This document shows, piece by piece, positions 16,696 to 27,993 of a stretch of DNA of 32,379 nt (the first letter of the stretch is position 1; each line of letters begins with the position of its first letter). This stretch comes from a virus, in IMG/VR virus record IMGVR_UViG_3300010430_000316, positions 1-32,379 of that record; one strand, given 5' to 3'. The translations under genes were made by a program, and so were the position numbers. Under the pieces are notes generated by a model, which was not told where the DNA came from, did not search any database, and saw only the letters and a list, made by a program, of their open reading frames with translations.

Positions 16696-17544
16696 CTATT
16701 GGGTTGTAAGTTCATCTATAAATTCCTTGTATTCTTTAACACTTTCCACGCAATCGTAGTTTGTTCTTGCATCTTCAAAGATTTGCTTGGCGTAAACATT
16801 GCGCTTATAGGTATCGTGCAACCGTTCTAATGCCTCTACTGTTGTTACCGCCGGAACTCCAAGCAAGTGCGAAACGATTGTTTTGTTTTCGGATTTGAAC
16901 CTGTCTTGAGGTCTATATCCTTTGGGTAGTATAACAGCATCGTGGGTTTTCAACATTCTGAATATGTTTTCTTGTTGGTATTTCTTATATGTGTAGTCTA
17001 GTTCGCCATGTCCTTTAGCCCACCGATATGCGTTAGGGTCATAATTCGAGTATATAGTCAGCTTGATATTGTTTCTGGCTAAGTATGGAACGGCTGTTTT
17101 TAGCAAATCGGCGTTTTGCGAATAACCGAACCACGCCACGCTTTCAATTTTGCCAGTGTGGGTTTTGGGGAATTTTGGCATATTATCGAGGTCAAATCTA
17201 TCTTTTATTACCTTGACTGGTTTATCTGTTAATTGCCTTATGAACTCTGCCATTGCTTGAGTTGGGCAAGTAACCCCATCCACAACGTCAATGGTTTCCT
17301 TAACTTTTTGCCCTTCCAGCCAGTCAGGGTCGCATATATCCAGTATCTTGATTCCGTCAAACACCTTTGGAAAATCAAAATCCGCGGTCATATAGACTTT
17401 TTGGAACACAATGACATCTGGTTTTTCGGCGTATTCGTACAGTTTGGCATCTGGCCAATGCTTGATGAGGTTGTGAACTCGTATCGTGGTTGACCCGATT
17501 TGTCTTTTGTTGTGATACTTCTCGTATGTAAAAAAGCTCACCAT
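16696..17544 (-). CDS. Glycosyltransferase-like protein
   Basis: A 282-residue protein probably belonging to the GT-B family. It starts [27 protein letters not shown], a stretch found at the start of a phage and bacterial glycosyltransferase-like group, followed by a Rossmann-like first half (KPDVIVFQKVYMTADFDFPKVFDG, KILDICDPDWLEG) and a C-terminal half with VAWFGYSQN, KLTIYSNYD and HDAVILPKGYRPQDRFKSENKTIVSHLLGVPAV, where the acidic and Lys residues match a nucleotide-sugar binding site. I chose the ATG at 17542-17544 because it leaves only a seven-base overlap with the upstream gene; ATG at 17562 is an alternative. Donor and acceptor sugars are not readable from the sequence. Confidence 0.72.
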   Translation of the reverse strand: MVSFFTYEKYHNKRQIGSTTIRVHNLIKHWPDAKLYEYAEKPDVIVFQKVYMTADFDFPKVFDGIKILDICDPDWLEGQKVKETIDVVDGVTCPTQAMAEFIRQLTDKPVKVIKDRFDLDNMPKFPKTHTGKIESVAWFGYSQNADLLKTAVPYLARNNIKLTIYSNYDPNAYRWAKGHGELDYTYKKYQQENIFRMLKTHDAVILPKGYRPQDRFKSENKTIVSHLLGVPAVTTVEALERLHDTYKRNVYAKQIFEDARTNYDCVESVKEYKEFIDELTTQ

Positions 17545-18608
17545 ATTTTTTGTCCATTCCATTTCGGTTTGTTGCCCTTTGATACTTCGCTGATGATATG
17601 CCACAAGTCCTTGAGATATCTTTCAAGGTTGAAATACTTAATGGCAGATTCCCTACCCCTTTGTCCTATCTCAACCGCATCTTTATAGTGATAATTCACT
17701 AACTGGTAAATGGTTTCAGCATATGATGCCGGATTGTCGGGTACGATAATACCATTCACGCCATGTACTATGAACTCATCAGCGTTGTGATACTTGCTTG
17801 TTAATATGGCCGATCCTGAAAGCATTGCTTCGGTTCTTGAGCGTGGCATCGGTGAATCTAACGTGGGGTTGACGTATATCAAAGACCTGCCGATATATTC
17901 TCGATACTCCGTCCAGTCAAACGGGACTTTTGCATTTCCCCAAAACAACGGGTCAATTTGGATATGCCTGACAAAATCTCCATACTTCTCTTTTGTCATT
18001 GTTTTTATCATTGTCAAAAGTGAACGATTGTAATACTTATCCAATCCACCCGGTGACAGTGAAATCACCGCTCTAGGTTCTTTGGGTAGGTCAAACCACT
18101 CTTTTTCATCCATTCCATGTATAAGCGGATATCCCCAACCCCAACGGTCACCTGCGGCATAAGAGTTCACCACCATAAAATTGTCGCCAATTAGCCTACG
18201 CATACCCTCAATGTGCTTTTTAGTTCCGTCCGTTCTGGATATTTCGCCGCCATTAATTACCATATCCTCGTCATACATTTCGGCATACATCGGAGTGCCA
18301 TGATTGATAACGATTTTCGGGATATCCTGAATCAGCTTGTTCATTTCACGATATATTTTGCCCTTGCCGATGTCGGGGTTAACGTGTTGTTGGTCAACGT
18401 GCAGGATCGCCACATCATACTTGCCGGGTTCGTAATAGGCCGCCCATTTCAAGTGCTTTGGCATTGGTCTCATTGACTGGTGAAACCTTGACCACTTCCG
18501 TACATTGTTGTTCAGATAAGTAAACTCAACGTCATAGTGTTCAGCCAGTTTAAGCATTTCATGCTGGTTGCCCAAATGGTTGACCACTCCGAATATCTTT
18601 AAAGCCAT
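17538..18608 (-). CDS. GT4-type glycosyltransferase
   Basis: A 356-residue GT-B protein. The N-terminal half has a Rossmann pattern ([39 protein letters not shown]) and a NHGTP segment. The C-terminal half has the donor-binding marks of family GT4: [15 protein letters not shown], the motif [27 protein letters not shown], in which the acidic residue of the E-x7-E-like site is in the RTEAMLSG segment, and [16 protein letters not shown], the phosphate-binding end. It probably transfers a sugar from a nucleotide donor in the cytoplasm. The ATG overlaps the GDP-mannose dehydratase stop by ten bases. Confidence 0.82.
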
Positions 18609-19534
18609 CTATCAACCATTTTTCGGACTATTTCCTTAAATGATGTACTTGGTTGCCACCCCAATTCTTGTTTGGCCTTGCTCGCATCGCCCAGTAAAGT
18701 ATTCACCTCAAGTGGTCGGTATAACTTCGGGTCTGATCGGACGTACTTTTTTGGGTCTAATCCCACATATGAAAAAGCCTCGTTTACAAATTCCTCTACA
18801 CTATGGTTTTTGCCAGTAGCTATAACAAAGTCATCTGGTTTTTCTTGTTGCAGCATCAACCACATAGCCTTGACATAATCCTGTGCATAGCCCCAATCCC
18901 TCATTGCTTCCAAGTTCCCAAGAACAAGCTCATCATCAACACCGTTTTTGATGTTGGCTGCACCTCTTGCGATCTTTTGGGTGACAAAATCATAGCCTCG
19001 GCGTTCTGATTCGTGATTGAACAATATACCCGAACAAGCAAACAAATTGTATGTTTCACGATAATTGATAACCGCATGATGGGCCATTGTCTTTGCTACT
19101 CCATATGGTGAACGTGGATATAACGGTGTTTTCTCGGTCTGCGGCGTTTCCTGTACCTTGCCAAACATTTCGCTTGTCGATGCCTGATAAAAGCGGATTG
19201 TTGGGTCAAGATTGCGGATTATTTCAAGTATACGAATCGGGCCAAGCCCGTTGATGTCGGTAGTTGATAAAGCAGTATCGAAACTTGCGCCCACATGTGA
19301 CTGAGCTGCTAAGTTATAAATTTCATGCGGGTGTACGTCCCGAATAATCCGCTCCAGGCTCGCTGTATCTGTCATATCTCCACAGTGTAGCGTTGCGCCT
19401 TCTAAGTATCTTATGTGATCGCTCTGAAAACTCGTGCGCCTGACGATACCATGCACTATATATCCCTTATTCAATAGCAACTCGGTTAAATATGTTCCAT
19501 CTTGACCAGTTGCGCCTGTAATCAAAGCCCTCAT
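18599..19534 (-). CDS. gmd: GDP-mannose 4,6-dehydratase
   Basis: A 311-residue short-chain dehydrogenase that converts GDP-mannose to GDP-4-keto-6-deoxymannose, the entry to GDP-fucose, GDP-rhamnose and related sugars. The NAD(P) site GATGQDG is at residues 7-13, [12 protein letters not shown] near 74, the STSEMFG segment at 119-125, the catalytic [10 protein letters not shown] (Y144, K148), NHESERRG at 173-180 and [21 protein letters not shown], all specific for this enzyme rather than for other SDR dehydratases. It is slightly shorter than the usual 320-370 residues but complete in motifs. It overlaps the GroES-like gene by four bases (ATGA). No reductase or epimerase to finish GDP-fucose is seen in the window; the host may supply it. 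Confidence 0.95.
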
Positions 19535-19779
19535 AGCAACGCAACCACGTCCTGTTCTTCAACTAATAACAATTGGTGCTTCTCGTCACCAAAGGTTAAT
19601 CGGGCATCGTGATATTTTTGATACACTATGCGATCACCAACCTTGACAGATTTGACTCGCTTGGCTACTCGTAGGATTTTACCAACTTGGGTATGTTTTT
19701 CTTCAAGCAATATATATTCTGATGGTTTGTCCGGCTCTGGCTCTATCAATATCCACTTCCTGATTGGTATAAATTTCAC
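19531..19779 (-). CDS. GroES-like co-chaperonin
   Basis: An 82-residue protein of the size and fold of GroES (Cpn10). It opens [25 protein letters not shown], matching the family start of P-L-x-D-x-V-L-I-x-P, then [50 protein letters not shown], where the G-K-I/V and V-K-V-G-D-x-V-x-Y/F and final E-x-D-V/I-x-A pattern are the conserved roof and strand positions. The N-terminal mobile loop ([13 protein letters not shown]) is short. Phages such as T4 (gp31) use their own co-chaperonin for folding capsid proteins; here it lies between glycan genes, and its partner would be host GroEL. GTG start. Confidence 0.85.
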
Positions 19780-21341
19780 AGCAACCCCATCTTGTATAGG
19801 CGGTTTTTTGAACGAGTAATTTCATTTTTTCTGCGCCACCTGTTGCTTGATTTACCCTTTGGCGTGGCTTTGGCTGACTCAATATACTCGGTTTGCATCC
19901 CCTGCGATCTGATTCTCGACCTAACCTCCTGTGACATACCGCCATACCACTCCATGCGCTCGCAAAACATGCCAGCGTCAATGCACTCTTGCCTATAAAC
20001 ACAACTAAAGTTTTCCACAAAGTCTTTTTTGAATCCTTTGTTTCCGTACAGCCAATAACGGGGTTTGATATTAGCCACAAACTGCTCAATTGCGTCAAGG
20101 TACATGATCTGTCTTTGGTCGCAAAATACCAAAACATCGCCTGTGGCCTCTATGATTCCCAAATTCCTTGCCCTTGCCAGTCCCCAACCCTCCTGTGGTC
20201 GGTTGATATACCGCACCGGATATTTTGAACGAGCTGCGAAACCTTTAACCAATGATTCATTGTGCGATTCAGGATTGTCGTTTGACACGATGATTTCAAG
20301 ATTTGTATAACTTTGGTTCTCAATTGCGTCGAGACATTCTTTCAATCCTTCCGGCTGATAGCATGGCACGATAACCGAAACGGTCTTTTCGTCACTCATA
20401 ACCTCCCTGTATAAGCGCTGGTACTCATACGCTCGGCGTTCATTTGATCGTACTTTGGCAGAATCCCATGCTTTTTCCCTGTAGCCTCTCAACTTTGATT
20501 CATCATCCAATAGGCTGCCGATTATCCGCTTGAGTTCCAGCACATTCTCAGGATCGCCATCGTATATTTCCATGTTTAATCCATTGTTTAGTTCTGGCAC
20601 ATGCCCAACGGGGCGAGACAATACTGGTGTTCCGCATAGCATAGCCTCCAATACAGGCAATGGGCCTGATTCAAAATCGTCAATTGAGTTACAAACCAAC
20701 AGCGATGATGTCTGATATAACTCCATCAAATCGCCATCTGATATGTTTTCGTGAAACTCAACCGCACCTGTCTGCCACACTGATTCGGCATAATTCTGGT
20801 CGCTAACACTACCCACCACGATAAGTTTGAATCCGAGTTCTCCACAGGCAATCGCCACAGGCAATATACCCTTCTTGCCCTCAATCCGCTTGGCGACCAT
20901 GATGACTTGTTTGTTGGGTTTCCAGTTGGGATTGAATTGCCAAAAGTCAGTATCAACTGTCAATTGAATTTTTTTTAGTTTGGCTTGGGTGATGGTTGTC
21001 AATTCCTCCCACATAGACTGATTATTGGCAATCACATAATCGTAGTGATTCCAGTTCTGTTCCCTTATCGAGTAGGGATTCATATGAGTCAGTATCTTCT
21101 TTTTGTCCTTGAGCCAGTCATACCTGTCAAGTAACATTTCGGCGGTACGGAAATATTGAAAGTCCACTATGTCGGCTTGGTTTGCCGAAGCCTCAAACCT
21201 TTGTAATTGGTCTGCTGATGGTCGCTTGGGGTGAACATCGCATATATCGAATTGAATATTATCGTGGAATCGTGCCACCCCTTCGGCCAGTCGGTCTATT
21301 GCTGTACCTTTTTTATCAACAACGCAAGTAATCCGCATCAT
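19776..21341 (-). CDS. Two-domain glycosyltransferase (GT4-GT2 fusion)
   Basis: A 521-residue fusion. Residues 1-315 form a GT4-like GT-B domain: a Rossmann half with QADIVDFQYFRTAEML, then KQVIMVAKRIEGKKGI and the donor site FESGPLPVLEAMLCGTPVLSR at about 224-243. Residues 319-521 form a GT-A (family 2) domain starting VSVIVPCYQPEGLKECLDAI, with LEIIVSNDN and GLARARNLGIIEATGDVLVFCDQRQIMY; the DxD metal site appears as CDQR, a variant seen in related enzymes. An internal ATG at about 20399 with GGGAGG close by could allow separate expression of the second domain. Two activities in one chain suggest two sugars added in series. It overlaps the neighbouring genes by four bases on each side. Confidence 0.85.
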   Translation of the reverse strand: MMRITCVVDKKGTAIDRLAEGVARFHDNIQFDICDVHPKRPSADQLQRFEASANQADIVDFQYFRTAEMLLDRYDWLKDKKKILTHMNPYSIREQNWNHYDYVIANNQSMWEELTTITQAKLKKIQLTVDTDFWQFNPNWKPNKQVIMVAKRIEGKKGILPVAIACGELGFKLIVVGSVSDQNYAESVWQTGAVEFHENISDGDLMELYQTSSLLVCNSIDDFESGPLPVLEAMLCGTPVLSRPVGHVPELNNGLNMEIYDGDPENVLELKRIIGSLLDDESKLRGYREKAWDSAKVRSNERRAYEYQRLYREVMSDEKTVSVIVPCYQPEGLKECLDAIENQSYTNLEIIVSNDNPESHNESLVKGFAARSKYPVRYINRPQEGWGLARARNLGIIEATGDVLVFCDQRQIMYLDAIEQFVANIKPRYWLYGNKGFKKDFVENFSCVYRQECIDAGMFCERMEWYGGMSQEVRSRIRSQGMQTEYIESAKATPKGKSSNRWRRKNEITRSKNRLYKMGLL

Positions 21342-22090
21342 TTTGTTCTATCTCCATTTTGGAACATGCCCCATCCATTATAACTAAAGTTTTCCGGCTT
21401 CAAGTCTGCAATAGCTTGCTCAATGTATTTCGGGTGAGTGCCGTCAAAATCGTGATGTTTTTGATACCGTCCCCGTACCATTTGCAACCAATCTTCGAGT
21501 GCTGTTTCGGGTTTCCCATGTCCATAGTTGCCAAATTTTCTATAATAAGCACTGGCAAATCTAGCCCGGTCAGTGCGATGTTGCTCTTTGGTTTTCAGCA
21601 AAGCATCATAGCAATAAAATGGGATCCTGGCTTCTGGAACTCTGCTATGGTCAAGCAATACACCGTCCAGCGTTGGTTGACTAAGATCGCCACCACCGTC
21701 AAATTTTATTTTGTTACCATACTTTTTCTTGTTAACCGCTATGGCTAAGCGGGATTTGAGCGTGTACTTCTTGGGGTTATAAAACATATATTTCCAAAAC
21801 GTCAATGCTGGTTCTTCTGAACTCAACAAAGCCCTCCTGATCTTCTCGTGGTCATCTTCATGGAAAAAATAATCAAGATCGCAATGAATCACCCAGTCGC
21901 CCGTTGCTCGTTCATAACCTTTTTGGAATTGTTGACCGATAAACTCCCACGAAAACTCGTCTGGCCACTTATCGTCAACCTCGATAACCTCATCGGCGAG
22001 ATCACGATAGCACTTCATGGCTTCGTGATAGGGTTCTTCTCTGGTTTTCCAATTGTCAGTTGTAACAAAAATGCTCAACTTTAAAGCCAT
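21338..22090 (-). CDS. GT2-like glycosyltransferase (GT-A fold)
   Basis: A 250-residue GT-A type protein. It starts with the strand LKLSIFVTTDNWKTREEPYHEAM, then ADEVIEVDDKWPDEFSWEFIGQQFQKGYERATGDWVIHCDLDYFFHEDD, where the C-D-L-D site is the metal-binding DxD motif of family 2 and related enzymes. The later segment (LLDHSRVPEARIPFYCYDA, HDFDGTHPKYIEQAI) probably forms the acceptor side and includes a histidine-rich H-x-F-x-G-x-H-P end typical of this group. It would add a sugar in the cytoplasm. Start is ATG at 22088-22090, overlapping the FkbM methyltransferase stop by ten bases. Confidence 0.78.
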   Translation of the reverse strand: MALKLSIFVTTDNWKTREEPYHEAMKCYRDLADEVIEVDDKWPDEFSWEFIGQQFQKGYERATGDWVIHCDLDYFFHEDDHEKIRRALLSSEEPALTFWKYMFYNPKKYTLKSRLAIAVNKKKYGNKIKFDGGGDLSQPTLDGVLLDHSRVPEARIPFYCYDALLKTKEQHRTDRARFASAYYRKFGNYGHGKPETALEDWLQMVRGRYQKHHDFDGTHPKYIEQAIADLKPENFSYNGWGMFQNGDRTK

Positions 22091-22599
22091 TGTTTATACC
22101 TCTTACCAAGTGTATTTATAATCTCACCTCTGTTATACTCGCCCGTCATTTTGCCATCGTGCCACTCTATCAATGCAATATCCATAATGTTATAAGTTCC
22201 ATCGTCAATCATCTTGTTCAGTATCGGAAACTCTGCGCCCTCTGCATCAAATTTGACTATCACAAAATCATCGGCAAACCGTTTAATCCACTGGGAAAAA
22301 TCAAAACACTTGGCTGTTAAAACCTCGCCCATGCCCCAGTCCCGCTTCTCTCTCATAATAGTCGAGCCATAGGGTGCATTTACTGGTCTGAGCGTGAAAT
22401 CAACCTCGCCATTGTAATTGTGCGCTGCCTTGCGTTCAAAGTGTGTATGTTCGTTGGTCATCTTATTCCACTTGGCTTGAAATCTTGGGTTGGGGTCAAA
22501 AGCGTATATTTCCCAATCGTCATGCAACATCTTGCCCCAGTTGCGAAACTCCCTTACTGTATCACCGTCATAACATCCAATGTCGATATATACATTCAT
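22081..22599 (-). CDS. FkbM-type methyltransferase
   Basis: A 172-residue SAM-dependent methyltransferase. The start MNVYIDIGCYDGDTVREF is SAM motif I of the FkbM family (x-x-D-I-G-x-x-x-G-x-T), followed by IYAFDPNPRF (motif II, acidic residue that holds SAM ribose) and FVIVKFDAEGAEFPIL, the family hallmark K-x-D-A/V-E-G-x-E. FkbM proteins O-methylate sugar hydroxyls. I take the ATG at 22597-22599, which overlaps the upstream stop as ATGA; a longer TTG start would extend into that gene. Short but complete in motifs, it likely methylates the glycan made by the neighbouring enzymes. Confidence 0.87.
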   Translation of the reverse strand: MNVYIDIGCYDGDTVREFRNWGKMLHDDWEIYAFDPNPRFQAKWNKMTNEHTHFERKAAHNYNGEVDFTLRPVNAPYGSTIMREKRDWGMGEVLTAKCFDFSQWIKRFADDFVIVKFDAEGAEFPILNKMIDDGTYNIMDIALIEWHDGKMTGEYNRGEIINTLGKRYKQWL

Positions 22600-23576
22600 T
22601 TCCAACACCAATATATCGGTTTTTGACAATTATCTTGATCTGTTGCAACGCTCACCTGTTCAACTTTCCTGAACATTTTTTTTAGTTCCGGCAAGGCGTT
22701 ATGTTCTTTTGAGTTGTCTTCAAAAATACATAGAAATTGTGTTATCTCTGGCAACCATTTTGGAATATCAACATGAAAGTTCATCGAAGCGAACAAGACC
22801 ACATCAGCCGGAGCAGGCTTTTCCGTCCTCAAATCCATTTCGATATAATCCGACTCCCAGCACTCAAACTCATTAGCAACTAGACGGCAGGCGGCAATTG
22901 GGTTCTCTGAGCCAATGTTGGAGCAATCATAGCCGATGGCTCTTGCGCCCTGTTTTTCGGCATATCTCACAAAGTAACCACCCGCACAACCTAAATCAGC
23001 GAATTTTCTATCTTCAAGATCAATTCGATCTAGCCCCAACCATTTGATGCGTTCGGGGTTTTGACGTGGTGAATTAGTCAATCCCCACTCTGGTATATCG
23101 TGATAATATATTTTGCCATATCGGGCGGTTTTTATGTACTTGGCTTTAATCTTTGCCTGATGGTCATCTGTAAAGTGAAAAGTATTGAAATCCACCAGCT
23201 TGCCGCCCATAACATCGTAAGTCGATACATCATCTTTGTCGTTGGTGAAACCGTATTCTTCGCCCAACTTTTTAACTTTGGTGTAAACTTCCCACGCTTC
23301 ATCCATGCTGGTTTCGCCACTAACCACTTCTGTGAACTGCGCCCAATACCTATGAGCGCCAACTTGTACCTGATGCACTCCGTAAACTCTGGGCGCTAGA
23401 TTGTGCATCCAACAAATGTTCTGAATTTTTGTCGCATCTTTTAGCGATACCGACATATTGTGTTGGTTCTCTTTGGGTTTGTCGCCCCATAGTTGGTTAT
23501 CGGGTTTGTCGTTAAACACCTTCCAGCCGTCATGGATAAAACAATGTTTACCTCTCGGAAATAGCTCATATATCAT
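22596..23576 (-). CDS. Kinase-like domain fused to a SAM methyltransferase
   Basis: A 326-residue two-part protein. Residues about 195-326 are a SAM methyltransferase: FADLGCAGGYFVRYAEKQGARAIGYD is motif I and II, with ADVVLFASMNFHV as motif IV. Residues 1-190 resemble a kinase or phosphotransferase fold: NICWMHNLAPRVYGV looks like the N-lobe to hinge region, NDKDDVSTYDVMGG the catalytic-loop area with Asn and Asp, and KLVDFNTFHF the metal-binding DFG-like segment. E. coli WbdD, a kinase-methyltransferase, ends polymannose O-antigen chains by capping them; this gene, with the domain order reversed, could have a similar chain-capping role. The methyltransferase is clear; the kinase part is inference. 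Confidence 0.75.
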   Translation of the reverse strand: MIYELFPRGKHCFIHDGWKVFNDKPDNQLWGDKPKENQHNMSVSLKDATKIQNICWMHNLAPRVYGVHQVQVGAHRYWAQFTEVVSGETSMDEAWEVYTKVKKLGEEYGFTNDKDDVSTYDVMGGKLVDFNTFHFTDDHQAKIKAKYIKTARYGKIYYHDIPEWGLTNSPRQNPERIKWLGLDRIDLEDRKFADLGCAGGYFVRYAEKQGARAIGYDCSNIGSENPIAACRLVANEFECWESDYIEMDLRTEKPAPADVVLFASMNFHVDIPKWLPEITQFLCIFEDNSKEHNALPELKKMFRKVEQVSVATDQDNCQKPIYWCWK

Positions 23577-24091
23577 TTTGAAAACTCCATTATAAAACCA
23601 GTTGTATTGTGATTGCTGTACTGCTTTGCCATTCTCATGCCATCGGCCATATATAGTTTTTGCAAATATCCCGACTTGTCCAGGCGATATGTAATATTAG
23701 TCAATTTCAACCCGAACTCTGCGCCAAGTCTTGCAAGCCCCGTTTCCGTATATCGCAAAGCGTCAAGTTCAAGTTCGTTGTGGTGTGGGTAGATCAATGG
23801 AGCTGAAATATAGGCGGTTCGTTTGGTGCAATCTGCTATGTTCTCAAAGGCCGTCATCGGATTAATCACATATTCGATTGTTTCAAGACAAAATACAATG
23901 TCTGCCGTTGGTGGATTCTGCCATTTTGTTTGTAAATCCCAATCAGGTAAATCCAAAACCCTGTAAGATTCAGCGTCCCATCGTCTAACCCTTGATTTAA
24001 CATTCATTTGACCGCCGCCGATATCAAGCACCGAACCCCGAACGTCTAATTGTGCCAGCCAATCTTCAAGCTGTTTCCTGTAAAAGCTCAA
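23573..24091 (-). CDS. SAM-dependent methyltransferase (class I)
   Basis: A 172-residue protein with motif I VLDIGGGQMNVKSR at about residues 21-34, YRVLDLPDWD (motif II, Asp for ribose) and ADIVFCLETIEYV (motif IV) followed by FENIADCTKRTAYISAPLIYPHH. The order and size match small class I methyltransferases, such as those that act on sugars or lipids. The start is a TTG at 24089-24091 with AAGGAG five bases ahead, overlapping the upstream glycosyltransferase by 26 bases; the longer open frame (to 24202) has no comparable site and I rejected it. The GGGQ motif is a common phage form. Target unknown, likely a glycan given the neighbours. Confidence 0.82.
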   Translation of the reverse strand: MSFYRKQLEDWLAQLDVRGSVLDIGGGQMNVKSRVRRWDAESYRVLDLPDWDLQTKWQNPPTADIVFCLETIEYVINPMTAFENIADCTKRTAYISAPLIYPHHNELELDALRYTETGLARLGAEFGLKLTNITYRLDKSGYLQKLYMADGMRMAKQYSNHNTTGFIMEFSK

Positions 24092-24920
24092 GATACTCCT
24101 TCCCCATTCTTTCAAGTTCAAAATAACTTGCTCCGTCATTCTCAAAATGCCAGATGATTTCAGGTGCGCCCCCAGTGTTTGCCATTCCGTACTCATCATC
24201 AATTTGACATCCGCACAATAAAGCCTCGATCAGGGTATTGGAGCAAGCATCATTCCAATAAGTGTAAAGGAAATAATCAGTATCACGATATAAATTAGCC
24301 AGATAATTCGGGTCAGATGAGACTCCCAGATACTTATATCGCTCATTCATGTAAAAATCAAAGTTGGCCTCGTGCATGTCTCTTGAGTACCTACCGATTA
24401 TTTTTAGCTCTGCTCTGCCCCCATGTTCTAAATACCTTTGTTGAAAGGTTGAACGGGCAATTTCCCAATTTTTAGTTTCGTCCCTTGAGTATCTTGAGAA
24501 TAAATATCTAACATTTTTGTTGGGTCGTCTACCCCTGTCATGATATATTGCCGTATCAGCACCGTTGATAATCACCGAGCCATCTTTGTTCAGATAAGGC
24601 TTTAGCAGATTCTTCGCAAATTCAGATTGGTAAACCACTACATCGGCAATGTTGGCATAATCCCGCATTTTTGGCATACCTGTTGATCTATTTCGGGAGT
24701 TTCTTAGTATATTATCCACCCTGAGTAAAATTTTTTTACCGTCCCGCTTGGCTTGTTCCACTTCCTCACGAGCAATCATCGAAGCCGAAGCAATGAAAAA
24801 CCAATCCGCTTTTTCATATTGTGGCTCGTATTTATCCCCCAATGCTTTAATCAGGTTTTTTTGAAACGTCCAGCCACCACCGAGTCTGTGATCTTCATAT
24901 CTGGCAAGATGTATTTTCAT
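24066..24920 (-). CDS. GT4-type glycosyltransferase
   Basis: A 284-residue GT-B protein. The N-terminal Rossmann half starts MKIHLARYEDHRLGGGWTFQKNLIKAL, with GGGW standing for the glycine-rich loop of GT4 enzymes and VVVYQSEFAKNLLKPYL for the typical acceptor-side helix. The C-terminal half has VRYLFSRYSRDETKNWEIA and DYFLYTYWNDACSNTLIEALLCGCQI, the donor-binding motif of GT4 with the conserved E in NTLIEALLCG, then GGAPEI. It is shorter than most GT4 enzymes (about 370 residues). The ATG at 24918-24920 overlaps the deacetylase stop as ATGA. Confidence 0.82.
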   Translation of the reverse strand: MKIHLARYEDHRLGGGWTFQKNLIKALGDKYEPQYEKADWFFIASASMIAREEVEQAKRDGKKILLRVDNILRNSRNRSTGMPKMRDYANIADVVVYQSEFAKNLLKPYLNKDGSVIINGADTAIYHDRGRRPNKNVRYLFSRYSRDETKNWEIARSTFQQRYLEHGGRAELKIIGRYSRDMHEANFDFYMNERYKYLGVSSDPNYLANLYRDTDYFLYTYWNDACSNTLIEALLCGCQIDDEYGMANTGGAPEIIWHFENDGASYFELERMGKEYLELLQETA

Positions 24921-25474
24921 TTTGTATTTGCCTTTATATAATCTTCCAGTTCGCCCCACATTGAGTATTTATCCAGCTCCCAAGCATGACACCACAATTC
25001 TATCTCGCCCTGTTTTAGCTTCAAATCGGCCAACTCTTGCCACTTGACCCCTTCATTTGCTCCTGACTTGGGGTGAATATGTACAAGATTCTTACCTCTG
25101 GTCAAGCGGATTTCTCCATAGTGTTTTTGTGCGAAATCTAACAATGGTTCTGTAATATATCCCCTCGCTGGTGCGAACTTGTTGATTTTCTTTTTGAATA
25201 ACCGCTCCAATTGTTTTTTGGATTCTTCGATTTCGTACCGAGCATCGTCCTCACTCATTCTTGTCAGCAGGTCGTGTGTAAGCCCATGAGAGCCGATTTC
25301 ATGGCGTTGGGCGATAATATACGCATTATTGTACGAAAGTGGCTTGTAGCCCTTCCTACGCGCTAGACCGTACCACTCAAGCGGCCAATAAAACACGCCG
25401 GGGATGCGGTATTTTTCAAGAAGCTCGAACAGAAAAAAATCATTTGCCGATCCGTCATCAACACTAATTCTCAT
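24917..25474 (-). CDS. Polysaccharide deacetylase (NodB-like, CE4)
   Basis: A 185-residue carbohydrate esterase. The metal and catalytic Asp lie in MRISVDDGSAND (D6, D7, equivalent to T-F-D-D-G), and the zinc ligands in HEIGSHGLTHDLL (H63 and H67, in the S-H-x-x-x-H motif). KFAPARGYI matches the R-P-P/Y motif near the substrate, and the closing C-terminal His is probably in LWCHAW. These enzymes remove N-acetyl groups from polymer or lipid-linked amino sugars. No signal peptide is visible, so it probably acts in the cytoplasm on a sugar or lipid-linked intermediate. The start is ATG at 25472-25474, overlapping the gene before by 11 bases. Confidence 0.86.
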   Translation of the reverse strand: MRISVDDGSANDFFLFELLEKYRIPGVFYWPLEWYGLARRKGYKPLSYNNAYIIAQRHEIGSHGLTHDLLTRMSEDDARYEIEESKKQLERLFKKKINKFAPARGYITEPLLDFAQKHYGEIRLTRGKNLVHIHPKSGANEGVKWQELADLKLKQGEIELWCHAWELDKYSMWGELEDYIKANTK

Positions 25475-26267
25475 TGAGCTTGTTAAATTCTTGGTTAGAT
25501 TGCACCGCCTGATTAAAGAACTTAGGATCATAGCCAACCTTCCTGCTTGCTTCCACTAGTGCCGGTAAATCTTTGTCGTAGCATTTTGACTTGAATCCGC
25601 GCTTGCCCTTCATGGTTCTGGTGTGCATGGCATCGGTTCGTGAGTCCAACCCCCACCCTTTAATTACTTGGATGAAATCACCGTCAAAAGCATCACAAAT
25701 TGATTTAACCTCGTTAGCAAACACCACTTTCATTCCACCCCATGTGTTTTCCACCATCTTGATCAATTCAGCTTCTAGGGCGGTTACTTGGTGGATGTGG
25801 ATATCTGGCGACATCTTTTCCCAGAAGAACTCCGCTACCTCGCTGCGGTCTTTAGGTTCACCGCCTACGATCAAAAAGTCATGTTTGACTGGATTGTGGG
25901 GATCGGGATATTTCCAAGCTGGCAACCAATAGTTGCCCTCACCGACATACTCAGGCGATACCACGATTCGTTTTCCATACTTGGCCTTTAACTTATCGGC
26001 TGTTCCAGGCATTAGGGCAGATTTGATGCAGATGAGTTCAGTTTCTAACCAACTGACAACATCATCAACGATTCCAGTGTCCAGCTCGTTAGTTTCGGTT
26101 AGGTTGGTTGGGACTGCCACTAATGCCATTGTGCATTTGTTAACTTCTTCCCTCGTTCCAATCTTTTTGGGTTCGTCATAAATGTAGGCATCTGGAAACA
26201 CGTTGAGAAACGCCTGTCCTACATAGCCATTTCCGATAATTGCTACTGTTCTGCTTGCTTCCGACAT
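25464..26267 (-). CDS. UDP-glucose/GDP-mannose dehydrogenase-like protein (short)
   Basis: A 267-residue protein of the nucleotide-sugar dehydrogenase family. The NAD site is VAIIGNGYVGQAF near residues 8-20 (G-x-G-Y-V-G). Further marks are LVAVPTNLTE, KSALMPGTADKL, VVSPEYVGEGN, the helix with MVENTWGGMKVVFANEV, whose Lys is a conserved catalytic residue, and GFKSKCYDKDLPALV, which holds the catalytic Cys. The family is usually about 400-450 residues; this copy ends just after the catalytic Cys region and lacks the C-terminal UDP-binding domain, so it is either a truncated relative or a different sugar dehydrogenase. The gene has no Shine-Dalgarno and starts only a few bases after a strong promoter. 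Confidence 0.78.
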   Translation of the reverse strand: MSEASRTVAIIGNGYVGQAFLNVFPDAYIYDEPKKIGTREEVNKCTMALVAVPTNLTETNELDTGIVDDVVSWLETELICIKSALMPGTADKLKAKYGKRIVVSPEYVGEGNYWLPAWKYPDPHNPVKHDFLIVGGEPKDRSEVAEFFWEKMSPDIHIHQVTALEAELIKMVENTWGGMKVVFANEVKSICDAFDGDFIQVIKGWGLDSRTDAMHTRTMKGKRGFKSKCYDKDLPALVEASRKVGYDPKFFNQAVQSNQEFNKLNEN

Positions 26268-26277
26268 GTTGGTTTTA

Positions 26278-26306
26278 TTTATACTTTATGCCAATAACTA
26301 AGTCAA
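26278..26306 (-). promoter_or_regulatory. Sigma70-type promoter of the glycan cassette (probably leaderless)
   Basis: On the minus strand TTGACT (plus-strand positions 26301-26306) is followed by a 17-base spacer and TATAAA (26278-26283), five of six matches each to the consensus boxes. The expected start of transcription lies about three to five bases before the ATG at 26267, so the first gene would be translated from a leaderless or nearly leaderless message, and no Shine-Dalgarno is seen there. The promoter overlaps the end of the preceding gene (26298-26585). Confidence 0.7.
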
Positions 26307-26585
26307 ATTCTCTTGAGTATTAGATTTATATATACCAGCTCTTTTGATTTGTAGTTCTTCTAGCTTCTTACACTGCTCTGGTGTGCATCTAACTAGGTGA
26401 TGAGGTAGTGGACTGTCAATGGCTCGTGTAAATGCCACTGTTACCTCGTAAGTTGCCCCTTTCCCCTCCTCTCTACGGACGTGATATCCAAGCCCTACAT
26501 CTGCGCAGTCTTTTACCCTCATAGCCTTCTTGCCCTTATACCTACCGATAACCCATTCTGCTTTTTGAACTTTACCAACCTGCAT
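26298..26585 (-). CDS. 95-residue protein of unknown function
   Basis: Starts MQVGKVQKAEWVIGRYKGKKAMRVKDC with a strong AAAGGAGG site nine bases before the ATG, and overlaps the replication-like gene by 14 bases, so the two are probably translated together. The sequence is a beta-rich start (residues 5-60, with YHVRREEGKGATYEVTVAF) followed by a short segment HHLVRCTPEQCKKLEELQIKR that could be a helix or zinc-binding region. I do not recognise the family. Its place suggests a role in replication or early control. Confidence 0.6.
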   Translation of the reverse strand: MQVGKVQKAEWVIGRYKGKKAMRVKDCADVGLGYHVRREEGKGATYEVTVAFTRAIDSPLPHHLVRCTPEQCKKLEELQIKRAGIYKSNTQENLT

Positions 26586-27285
26586 CGTATGTAACCTCCT
26601 TTACGTTTTCAGCTGCCCACTTCTCTACCTGCTCATAACTCTTGATTAAGAAGTCCAAGTCTGCTTCCCACCCCCTGTCGTTGTCGCCACGATGGAACTC
26701 TGACTCGGATAGATTGTCTACTGCTTGTAATAACATCTCCTCCCCTGCGTCATTTAACCGAACCTTGAGTTTCTTTTTACGAGCATCGCTTAACTTGTAT
26801 TGGTTTGGGTTTTTACCAAACTTTTCAATGAATCGGTTATAGACACGTCGAATAGCATCGCTATTCCGACTAGTACCTTTAGGTACTATAAGATTCTCTT
26901 TGTTATTCTCTATCAGTGAACTTTGTTCACTAGCGGGGTGAACTTTGTTCACTGCTACCTCTATCAGTGAACTTTGTTCACTAGCGGGGTGAACTTTTTT
27001 CACCGCTACCCTTATATATTTTGGTGTTACTCGTACATGACCACGCACATTCTTCTCTATAAGCTCACGCTCAATCATTCGGTTTTTTAGATTTATGAGT
27101 CCACGCCTAGTTATTCCCATATCTTCAGCACAGCTTTCAAGCGATTTACTGCACCACCGTTGATATGAAAGCTTGTGTACCATATCTAAATAAAAGTATT
27201 CATTTATGGATATATTTAACTGCTTTCGCACACCATATAATAGTGTCGCATAAAGCGGTGTTTCGTTTTGCTCCTTTTGCTCCAT
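26572..27285 (-). CDS. Replication initiator / replisome organizer-like protein
   Basis: A 237-residue protein. The N-terminal 100 residues form a winged-helix-like domain (INEYFYLDMVHKLSYQRWCSKSLESCAEDMGITRRGLINLKNRMIERELIEK), the type found in phage replication proteins such as replisome organizers. A central stretch is a 17-residue duplication (KVHPASEQSSLIEVAVN) encoded by the iteron region. The C-terminal third (RRVYNRFIEKFGKNPNQYKLSDARKKKLKVRL, then LDFLIKSYEQVEKW) resembles the helicase-loader-binding or DnaD-like tail of the family. It is the first gene of the long minus-strand unit, with an AGGGGG site before its ATG. The name is inferred from domain type, internal repeats and position. 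Confidence 0.75.
   Translation of the reverse strand: MEQKEQNETPLYATLLYGVRKQLNISINEYFYLDMVHKLSYQRWCSKSLESCAEDMGITRRGLINLKNRMIERELIEKNVRGHVRVTPKYIRVAVKKVHPASEQSSLIEVAVNKVHPASEQSSLIENNKENLIVPKGTSRNSDAIRRVYNRFIEKFGKNPNQYKLSDARKKKLKVRLNDAGEEMLLQAVDNLSESEFHRGDNDRGWEADLDFLIKSYEQVEKWAAENVKEVTYDAGW
26910..27011. repeat. Tandem 51-bp repeat carrying palindromic iterons
   Basis: Two direct copies of a 51-bp unit (26910-26960 and 26961-27011) differ at three bases. Each copy holds two 15-base palindromes GTGAACTTTGTTCAC, at 26916-26930, 26938-26952 and 26967-26981, with a fourth, imperfect copy (one change) at 26989-27003. The spacings are 22, 29 and 22 bases, nearly two or three helical turns, so a dimeric protein could bind all on related faces. 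The array lies inside the replication-like gene and keeps the reading frame (17 codons per unit). It is a strong candidate for the initiator binding site. Confidence 0.85.
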
Positions 27286-27305
27286 TTATACCCCCTATAA
27301 ATGAA

Positions 27306-27336
27306 AACCGCCCGCTGTGTACGCAGGCGGGCAGTT
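27306..27336. promoter_or_regulatory. GC-rich hairpin in the leader of the replication operon
   Basis: A 10-base stem (27306-27315 with 27327-27336, one G-T pair) closes an 11-base loop. On the minus strand the stem is followed by TTTTC, about 20 bases before the replication gene ATG, so it could act as an attenuator or terminator in that leader; the short T run makes an efficient terminator less likely. Confidence 0.5.
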
Positions 27337-27342
27337 CTCATC

Positions 27343-27354
27343 TTACAATTGTAA
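27343..27354. promoter_or_regulatory. 12-bp palindrome TTACAATTGTAA (operator candidate)
   Basis: A perfect 12-base inverted repeat, TTACAATTGTAA, located about 30 bases downstream of the minus-strand promoter and before the leader hairpin. This is a normal place for an operator that blocks transcription of the long minus-strand unit. The binding protein is not identified; the HTH-RHH protein at 28740 is one candidate. Confidence 0.5.
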
Positions 27355-27382
27355 ACTATGGCTATCGTACACTAGCCTTTTC

Positions 27383-27411
27383 ATAATATATTATTTTGTT
27401 GATAAATCCAA
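27383..27411 (-). promoter_or_regulatory. Minus-strand promoter for the replication-to-tail block
   Basis: TTGGAT (plus positions 27406-27411) and TATTAT (27383-27388) are separated by 17 bases on the minus strand. The -10 box matches five of six bases and lies in a perfect 12-base palindrome ATAATATATTAT (27383-27394) that would melt easily. The expected start is near 27376, which leaves a leader of about 90 bases containing the TTACAATTGTAA palindrome and the GC-rich hairpin. Confidence 0.5.
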
Positions 27412-27489
27412 TTAGTCAGGGAATCTCGGTGCGATAAAGACGATCAACGGAAGGGGTGATCTTGCACCTGACTCCCCGACTTATCCACA
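27397..27489. other. Putative replication-origin element: DnaA boxes flanking a folded region
   Basis: A perfect consensus DnaA box TTATCCACA lies at 27481-27489 on the plus strand and a one-mismatch box TTATCAACA at 27397-27405 on the minus strand. Next to the latter is the AT-rich palindrome at 27383-27394. Between the boxes is a folded element: AGTCA (27414-27418) pairs with TGACT (27469-27473), GGTGC (27428-27432) with GCACC (27464-27468) and GATCA (27442-27446) with TGATC (27457-27461). Boxes, AT-rich DNA and the nearby initiator gene with iterons together fit an origin; the folded part could also be a small structured RNA. Confidence 0.5.
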
Positions 27490-27519
27490 TTGTAGCACGG
27501 CTAATATATCTTGCTTATG

Positions 27520-27548
27520 TTGACATTAAACTACTAGCATGATAAACT
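27520..27548 (+). promoter_or_regulatory. Plus-strand early promoter
   Basis: TTGACA at 27520-27525 is a perfect -35 box, followed after a 17-base spacer by TAAACT at 27543-27548 (four of six matches to the -10 consensus). It faces the small gene at 27575 and the ERF and HTH genes after it, and is divergent from the minus-strand promoter at 27383-27411, a layout typical of phage early control regions. Confidence 0.65.
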
Positions 27549-27574
27549 TGTGATGTCATTAACGGAGGGCAGAA

Positions 27575-27709
27575 ATGAAAACAATCAAACAAAATAACAA
27601 AAGATACATCATCTACACCGAGTTTGTATCTAAAACGCCTGTGGCGATTGAGATTTCTCGATTGCATTACTGGCGTTGCAAATTGATGGGAGGCGTTATA
27701 TGGCCATAG
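27575..27709 (+). CDS. 44-residue early protein of unknown function
   Basis: A short frame starting ATG with GGAGG about six bases ahead and about 26 bases after the -10 box of the strong early promoter, so it is the first gene of the plus-strand early unit. The product is MKTIKQNNKRYIIYTEFVSK at the start, then PVAIEISRLHYWRCKLMGGVIWP. It is basic, with no signal or membrane segment. The next gene starts inside its end (ATG at 27700), pointing to coupled translation. No family recognised; tiny first early genes of phages often code for host-takeover or anti-defence proteins, but nothing here shows that. Confidence 0.6.
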   Translation: MKTIKQNNKRYIIYTEFVSKTPVAIEISRLHYWRCKLMGGVIWP

Positions 27710-27993
27710 ACCCATTGTTTAAGGATATTCTCGACAAACAATTTATGCCGGTGCGAGAAATCAAAGTCAAACACATAACGACCAACAATAAACTATTGTT
27801 TAAGGATATTCTCGACAAACAATTTGTGTGGGTGCGAGAAATCAAAGTCAAACACATACCAACCAACAATAAACTAGCCAAGTGTCCTGGATGCAAACAC
27901 TACACTATTTCAGGTCAAAGGCATTGTGATCCCAGAGACTATACACCTGACTATATGTGGGATGATGACTGGCTAATAGAGCAACCATTTTAA
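27700..27993 (+). CDS. 97-residue protein with internal 27-residue duplication and Cys-rich end
   Basis: Starts ATG at 27700 with GGGAGG six bases ahead, overlapping the preceding gene by ten bases. After MAIDP it consists of two 27-residue copies, LFKDILDKQF(M/V)xVREIKVKHI followed by (T/P)TNNKL, then a Cys-rich C-terminus CPGCKHYTISGQRHCD with an acidic tail (DYMWDDDWLIEQPF). The C-x2-C plus later H-C could bind one zinc ion. Function unknown. Position in an early operon next to an ERF protein suggests DNA metabolism or host takeover. Confidence 0.6.
   Translation: MAIDPLFKDILDKQFMPVREIKVKHITTNNKLLFKDILDKQFVWVREIKVKHIPTNNKLAKCPGCKHYTISGQRHCDPRDYTPDYMWDDDWLIEQPF
27715..27876 (+). repeat. 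81-bp tandem coding duplication
   Basis: Two copies, 27715-27795 and 27796-27876, differ at five of 81 bases. All five differences fall in three codons and change the amino acid (Met to Val, Pro to Trp, Thr to Pro); no silent difference is present. The duplication is thus recent, and the changes look clustered. Each copy starts TTGTTTAAG and has an inverted end AAACAA 15 bases later, so a hairpin or protein site is also possible. Confidence 0.85.

Follow-up and report, generated by a model that had tools for sequence, protein, structure and literature searches.

Organization of the rep locus

The window, that is, the whole 32,379-bp IMG/VR record analysed here, carries the markers of a tailed phage (terminase, portal, capsid, Erf, CHAP, and a NinG/Rap-like HNH gene), together with a minus-strand gene, rep, whose features are listed in Table 1. 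The product matches PHROG_345, annotated as 'replication initiation O-like', with E=4.4e-13 (residues 44-215 to positions 65-277 of the 297 in the profile), and also PHROG_19658 (E=1.8e-11) and other initiator families, while a Pfam search of the protein gave no match. The Rep profile also matches MarR-type winged helices. An AlphaFold2 model, built from a shallow alignment of 12 sequences, resembles winged helices (best PDB E 1.9e-3) and predicts a disordered linker at residues 99-142, followed by a helical domain that presumably contacts the host helicase or its loader. The protein, called replication-like in an earlier note made from the sequence alone, is thus a lambda O-like initiator by PHROG profile and predicted fold.

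Table 1. Features of the rep locus and of other loci (window positions unless a locus is named)
Feature	Position	Strand	Remarks
rep, O-like replication initiator gene	26572-27285	-	237 aa; ORF and PHROG profiles
Winged-helix DNA-binding domain, residues 10-96	26998-27258	-	Predicted; AlphaFold2 pLDDT by block mostly 76-94
Recognition helix, residues 60-72 (R60 R61)	27070-27108	-	R61 is the column covarying with the half-site
C-terminal helical domain, residues 140-227	26605-26868	-	Predicted; AlphaFold2 confidence low to moderate; covered by the PHROG matches
Iteron 1 (gene order)	26989-27003		GTGAACTTTTTTCAC, gene sense GTGAAAAAAGTTCAC; one mismatch; codes VKKVH
Iteron 2	26967-26981		Gene sense GTGAACAAAGTTCAC; exact; codes SEQSS
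Iteron 3	26938-26952		Gene sense GTGAACAAAGTTCAC; exact; codes VNKVH
Iteron 4	26916-26930		Gene sense GTGAACAAAGTTCAC; exact; codes SEQSS
51-bp tandem unit, copy nearer the A-rich side	26908-26958		
51-bp tandem unit, other copy	26959-27009		96% identical to the first
A-rich tract	26876-26915	-	Adjoins the 3' side of the array (gene sense, TGATAGAGAATAACAAAGAGAATCTTATAG...); candidate unwinding element
Dispersed GTGAACNNNGTTCAC repeat	L021, L022, L025, L029, L039, L045, L046, L050, L051, L055, L068, L070, L079		
CATATG-type arrays	L091:5913-6001, L093:5864-5925, L094:6586-6645, L097:6593-6657		

A search for close relatives of Rep gave none in IMG/VR and a single weak C-terminal match in INPHARED. 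Phages related to this one through Erf and terminase carry neither this Rep nor the palindromes. A helicase-loader gene of the P or DnaC type was not recognized in the downstream ORF (26298-26585), which has no PHROG or Pfam match, nor among the other early ORFs scanned in the window. The window has no Rfam matches and no tRNA. A turn in its GC skew at 27-28 kb coincides with a change in gene direction, and the skew was therefore left out as evidence.

The intergenic region between the divergent rep and Erf operons (27290-27570) contains a GC-rich hairpin, a long imperfect stem, and one TTATCCACA; its folding z-score is -1.7, it has no Rfam match, and a DnaA box there does not exceed what chance would give. 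Between the packaging genes and rep (16696-26267) lies a run of sugar-related, glycosyltransferase-like, and methyltransferase-like genes, named by eye, which is of unusual size for a 32-kb phage record.

The palindrome array

A pattern scan of the record located three exact copies of GTGAACTTTGTTCAC and a fourth with one mismatch, separated by steps of 22, 29, and 22 bp, at the positions given in the earlier note. GTGAAC-N3-GTTCAC with 0-1 mismatch occurs nowhere else in the 32,379 bp, and the reversed-pattern control gave 0 matches. The 51-bp tandem duplication, likewise confirmed, is in frame with the rep ORF and adds 17 residues. The array begins 283 nt into rep, and the iterons code for residues 95-124, which belong mostly to the disordered linker. 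The central step of 29 bp is unusual and corresponds to no whole number of helical turns. Of the four sites, the degenerate iteron 1 is the most distant from the A-rich side; in Stx phage origins the weakly bound sites are the distal ones too (PMC7466680). The first 30 bp of the A-rich tract reach about 73% A+T against about 60% for rep as a whole; this is modest, and the tract is not where rep is most AT-rich. A second recent in-frame duplication is found near rep at 27714-27875, where an 81-bp tandem repeat (94% identical) adds 27 residues to ORF 27676-27993(+).

Two other identities were considered for the sites and rejected. LexA/SOS boxes have the form GAAC-N4-GTTC, with a spacer of four bases, and lie at promoters, whereas the spacer in the window has three bases and the sites are in the middle of a gene. 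Plasmid iteron origins consist of direct repeats outside the rep gene to which monomeric Rep binds (PMC5043065), whereas the sites in the window are palindromes inside it.

Selection on the DNA and on the peptide

When synonymous versions were resampled with the phage's own codon usage, the VNKVH and SEQSS segments were both palindromic in only 1.2e-4 of them, and the palindromes are therefore no by-product of the peptide. The four sites in the window are confined to two reading frames. Read in the remaining frame, GTGAACNNNGTTCAC includes TGA, a constraint that helps to explain the recurrence of steps such as 22+29=51 and 22+23=45. Across 17 loci with a GTGAAC site, 30 exact sites lie in the xExxS frame and 21 in the VNxVH frame. 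Near-sites in the stop frame were found only twice (L010 and L030), each with a single mismatch that replaces the T of TGA; as an open frame must lack TGA, these two cases show adaptation only insofar as nothing else in them is altered.

These results bear on the idea that selection acts on the protein, with the repeated 17-residue unit as a functional peptide and the palindromes incidental to it. The kept frame and the intact duplication of the unit would fit such selection. We nevertheless consider it very unlikely, given the resampling result, the use of two frames among the GTGAAC loci, the mismatches of both stop-frame near-sites precisely where TGA is removed, and the predicted disorder of the segment. 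The earlier suggestion that one change may serve both the DNA site and the protein is thus half right: 17 residues are indeed added, but they fall in the predicted disordered linker and relatives code the site in either of two frames (VNxVH or xExxS). For both reasons, selection appears to act on the DNA, with the peptide being tolerated.

Survey of O-like initiator genes

Two close GTGAAC-type palindromes were found in 16 IMG/VR contigs, three of which (L007, L009, and L014) represent the same gene, and in 15 of the 16 a winged-helix, Rep-like ORF contains the sites. A control palindrome planned as a negative, GTCAAG-N3-CTTGAC, matched four contigs, two of them in Rep-like genes as well, and we therefore conducted a general survey of O-like genes. 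The discovery survey was blind to palindromes and used PHROG_345 matches in about 300 genomes each of Bacillota, Pseudomonadota, and Actinomycetota, plus ten genomes drawn from loci; an array was called by a mechanical detector when at least three phased palindromes were present. In-gene arrays were detected at 18 of the 95 discovery loci, in every case with a start at +235 to +369 nt from the beginning of the match, against 0 in 228 kb outside the genes. A fresh set that included Bacteroidota (110 loci, 91 with a winged-helix match at i-E < 0.01) gave 17 arrays in genes and 1 outside in 159 kb. Over both sets, comprising about 200 O-like loci, 35 arrays are thus in-gene and 1 outside, and the in-gene ones closely follow the winged helix.

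Steps of 21-24 bp dominate across the survey, and the iteron sequences vary widely among O-like loci. The strict detector reveals an array in less than half of these loci. Directly 3' of the arrays, A on the coding strand rises by 16% (z=11.8, 50 loci) with T unchanged, comparable to the A+T-rich tract of lambda. Lambda O, used as a positive control, gave a matching order, with a winged-helix match at residues 44-115 and iterons from nt 348.

The survey makes it extremely unlikely that the repeat arose by chance, as a slippage duplication of a functionless palindrome. The two 51-bp copies, being 96% identical, are young, as slippage would have it; however, unrelated phages have this palindrome in the corresponding position of Rep-like genes, and arrays are close to absent outside the gene. 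An operator function, in which Rep or another winged-helix regulator would block elongation at the palindromes and autoregulate rep with no role in an origin, deserves somewhat more attention, as most winged helices of this type regulate transcription, and pairs of this palindrome that are probably operators of a regulator do occur in bacteria. Such pairs, 22-25 bp apart, were observed in Rhodococcus (L027, L037, L057, L060, L064, and L072, several of them beside an apparent MFS transporter gene) and in Arthrobacter (L032, L034, and L066). The array in the window, however, is phased, lies 283 nt into the gene within the linker, and is followed by a modestly A-rich tract, as in the lambda ori, and all but one of the 16 viral matches are inside Rep-like genes; an operator function alone is therefore improbable.

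Tandem GTGAACNNNGTTCAC copies in bacterial genomes were also considered as Rep sites and rejected, as they are mostly not associated with Rep. Besides the operator-like actinobacterial pairs, they include pairs mostly 32 bp apart over unrelated ORFs of a few Deltaproteobacterial/Myxococcales genomes, which constitute a dispersed palindromic repeat. In Erf-related phages, apparently non-coding CATATG-type palindrome arrays, with a period of mostly 23-24, lie beside an AT-rich tract, and these may possibly be an intergenic origin in place of an in-gene one.

Recognition helix and half-site

Counted from the Ser/Thr at the start of the recognition helix, the second residue that follows is Arg in 18 of 22 discovery loci with GTG-type arms vs. 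3 of 19 others (p=3e-5), many of these loci having been gathered by the GTGAAC pattern. The prediction that Arg accompanies GTG-type arms was fixed beforehand for the fresh set, where it held in 6/6 vs. 6/20 loci (p=0.004). With near-identical sequences removed, the figures are 19/23 vs. 8/34 (p=1.3e-5), relatedness being only partly controlled. The four most site-associated of the 70 alignment columns are all in helix 3. Rep of the window combines R61 with GTG arms, as expected for a protein that belonged to the discovery set. Taken from sequence comparison, this covariation suggests a joint evolution of the initiator and its sites that is in part readable.

Streptococcus thermophilus phages

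The blastn match between the array in the window and rep of Streptococcus thermophilus phages is weak (E 0.4) and not significant alone. The rep genes of these phages (P9901, P9902, SW2, and others) contain in-gene GTGAACAAAGTACAC sites, arranged as two-site units of 45 bp. Between P9901 and P9902, all 810 of 810 shared bases of rep are identical, and the difference is exactly one such unit. The earlier note had proposed a search of relatives for variable numbers of the 51-bp unit; no relatives varying in the number of exactly this unit were found, and the 45-bp case of P9901 and P9902 is a strict analogue. The 17 sampled streptococcal phages have 2, 4, or 6 sites, apart from CHPC869, with a frame-shifted gene and 5. 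In the CHPC869 rep (L321), the frame shift stems from an insertion inside the first iteron, and the record annotates two overlapping rep pieces, which may reflect either a sequencing error or a real split gene.

Asn in helix 3 goes with an outer G/C and Glu with an outer C/G in 17 of 17 streptococcal phages and at 81 of 81 sites. At helix 3 and over most of the iteron region, the identity between Asn- and Glu-type rep genes is as low as 0.67-0.77, vs. mostly 0.87-1.0 elsewhere, and this confinement fits an exchange of the reader and its sites as one block. Since the independent events are probably few, the streptococcal case is a strong example rather than statistics. As in the window, these sites also code for VNKVH, come in tandem two-site units, and lie in a linker after the DNA-binding domain. 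The streptococcal genes differ in their helix (SNKAV vs. TRRGL), in their site number, and in having a second replication gene next door (DnaC-like in Javan prophages); the origin role is putative in both systems.

Comparison with known in-gene origins

The lambda ori lies inside O and consists of four iterons and an A+T-rich tract (PMC5043065, PMC3349717). The lambda gene and that of the window share a winged-helix-like N-terminal domain, in-gene palindromic iterons directly after it, an A-rich tract 3' of these (modest in the window), and a C-terminal part. They differ in the half-site (TCCCTC-N5 in lambda vs. GTGAAC-N3), have very low sequence identity, and, unlike the O-P module of lambda, the window lacks a recognizable P-type helicase loader among the ORFs scanned. 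Stx phages have six iterons, and two gained iterons add 13 residues to O (PMC7466680), a gain that resembles the 17 residues added in the window. For TP901-1 (ORF13), Tuc2009 (Rep2009), both lactococcal, the initiator binds a repeat-rich region of its own gene that was determined as the origin (PMC8965321), and in SPP1 the oriL repeats and an AT-rich region lie within gene 38, which encodes the initiator gp38 (PMC6316719). Both cases resemble the window in the location of the repeats, but these are direct repeats by the published description of TP901-1 and Tuc2009 and likewise in SPP1, which has in addition a second origin, oriR. Given the origins in the initiator genes of lambda, Stx phages, TP901-1, Tuc2009, and SPP1, the design of the array in the window is already known. 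We found no paper in the open-licence literature presenting a cross-phylum survey of in-gene origins or a helix-site covariation, and the covariation of reader and site is the more interesting part of this work than the array itself.

Proposed function and significance

The palindromes sit where lambda O and many O-like genes have their iterons, which supports the phage-origin arrangement put forward in the earlier note. We estimate a probability of roughly 0.88 that the array is the replication origin of this phage, of the lambda type and inside the gene of its own initiator. Points against this reading are the 29-bp central step, the degenerate iteron 1, the modest A-rich tract in the window, the lack of a helicase loader among the ORFs scanned and of close Rep relatives for comparison within its own lineage, and the detection of arrays in less than half of the O-like loci. 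The sequence itself shows the sites and where they lie, the constraint on their frame, the domain layout as predicted, the repeated occurrence of this layout with an A-rich tract in many phages, and the helix-site covariation, whereas binding, dimerization, unwinding, and helicase loading by Rep are inferred, with the covariation in relatives as indirect support for binding. Rep, probably as a dimer, would use the recognition helix in its N-terminal winged helix to bind each GTGAACAAAGTTCAC palindrome and, on sites about two helical turns apart, would assemble into one complex. This complex may then open the A-rich DNA just 3' of the array, while the C-terminal domain would recruit the host helicase. 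The array itself probably grew by in-frame duplication of a two-site unit, with the 17 extra residues being placed in a flexible linker.

For the window, this marks the most likely replication start of an uncultured phage together with the protein responsible for it. The survey suggests that in-gene origins are common beyond the lambdoid and lactococcal phages and that they can be found from sequence. Natural initiator/site pairs, such as the streptococcal ones with their 81 of 81 consistent sites, offer a ready-made experiment on the joint change of a DNA-binding protein and all of its sites. We lean slightly towards a broader view, in which many phage initiators in several bacterial phyla are self-contained specificity cassettes, with helix and sites within a few hundred bases of one gene, that co-diversify, can swap en bloc, gain or lose in-frame two-site units, and follow a partly readable code between helix 3 and half-site. 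If this holds true, both the origin and its sequence could be predictable from the initiator gene alone.
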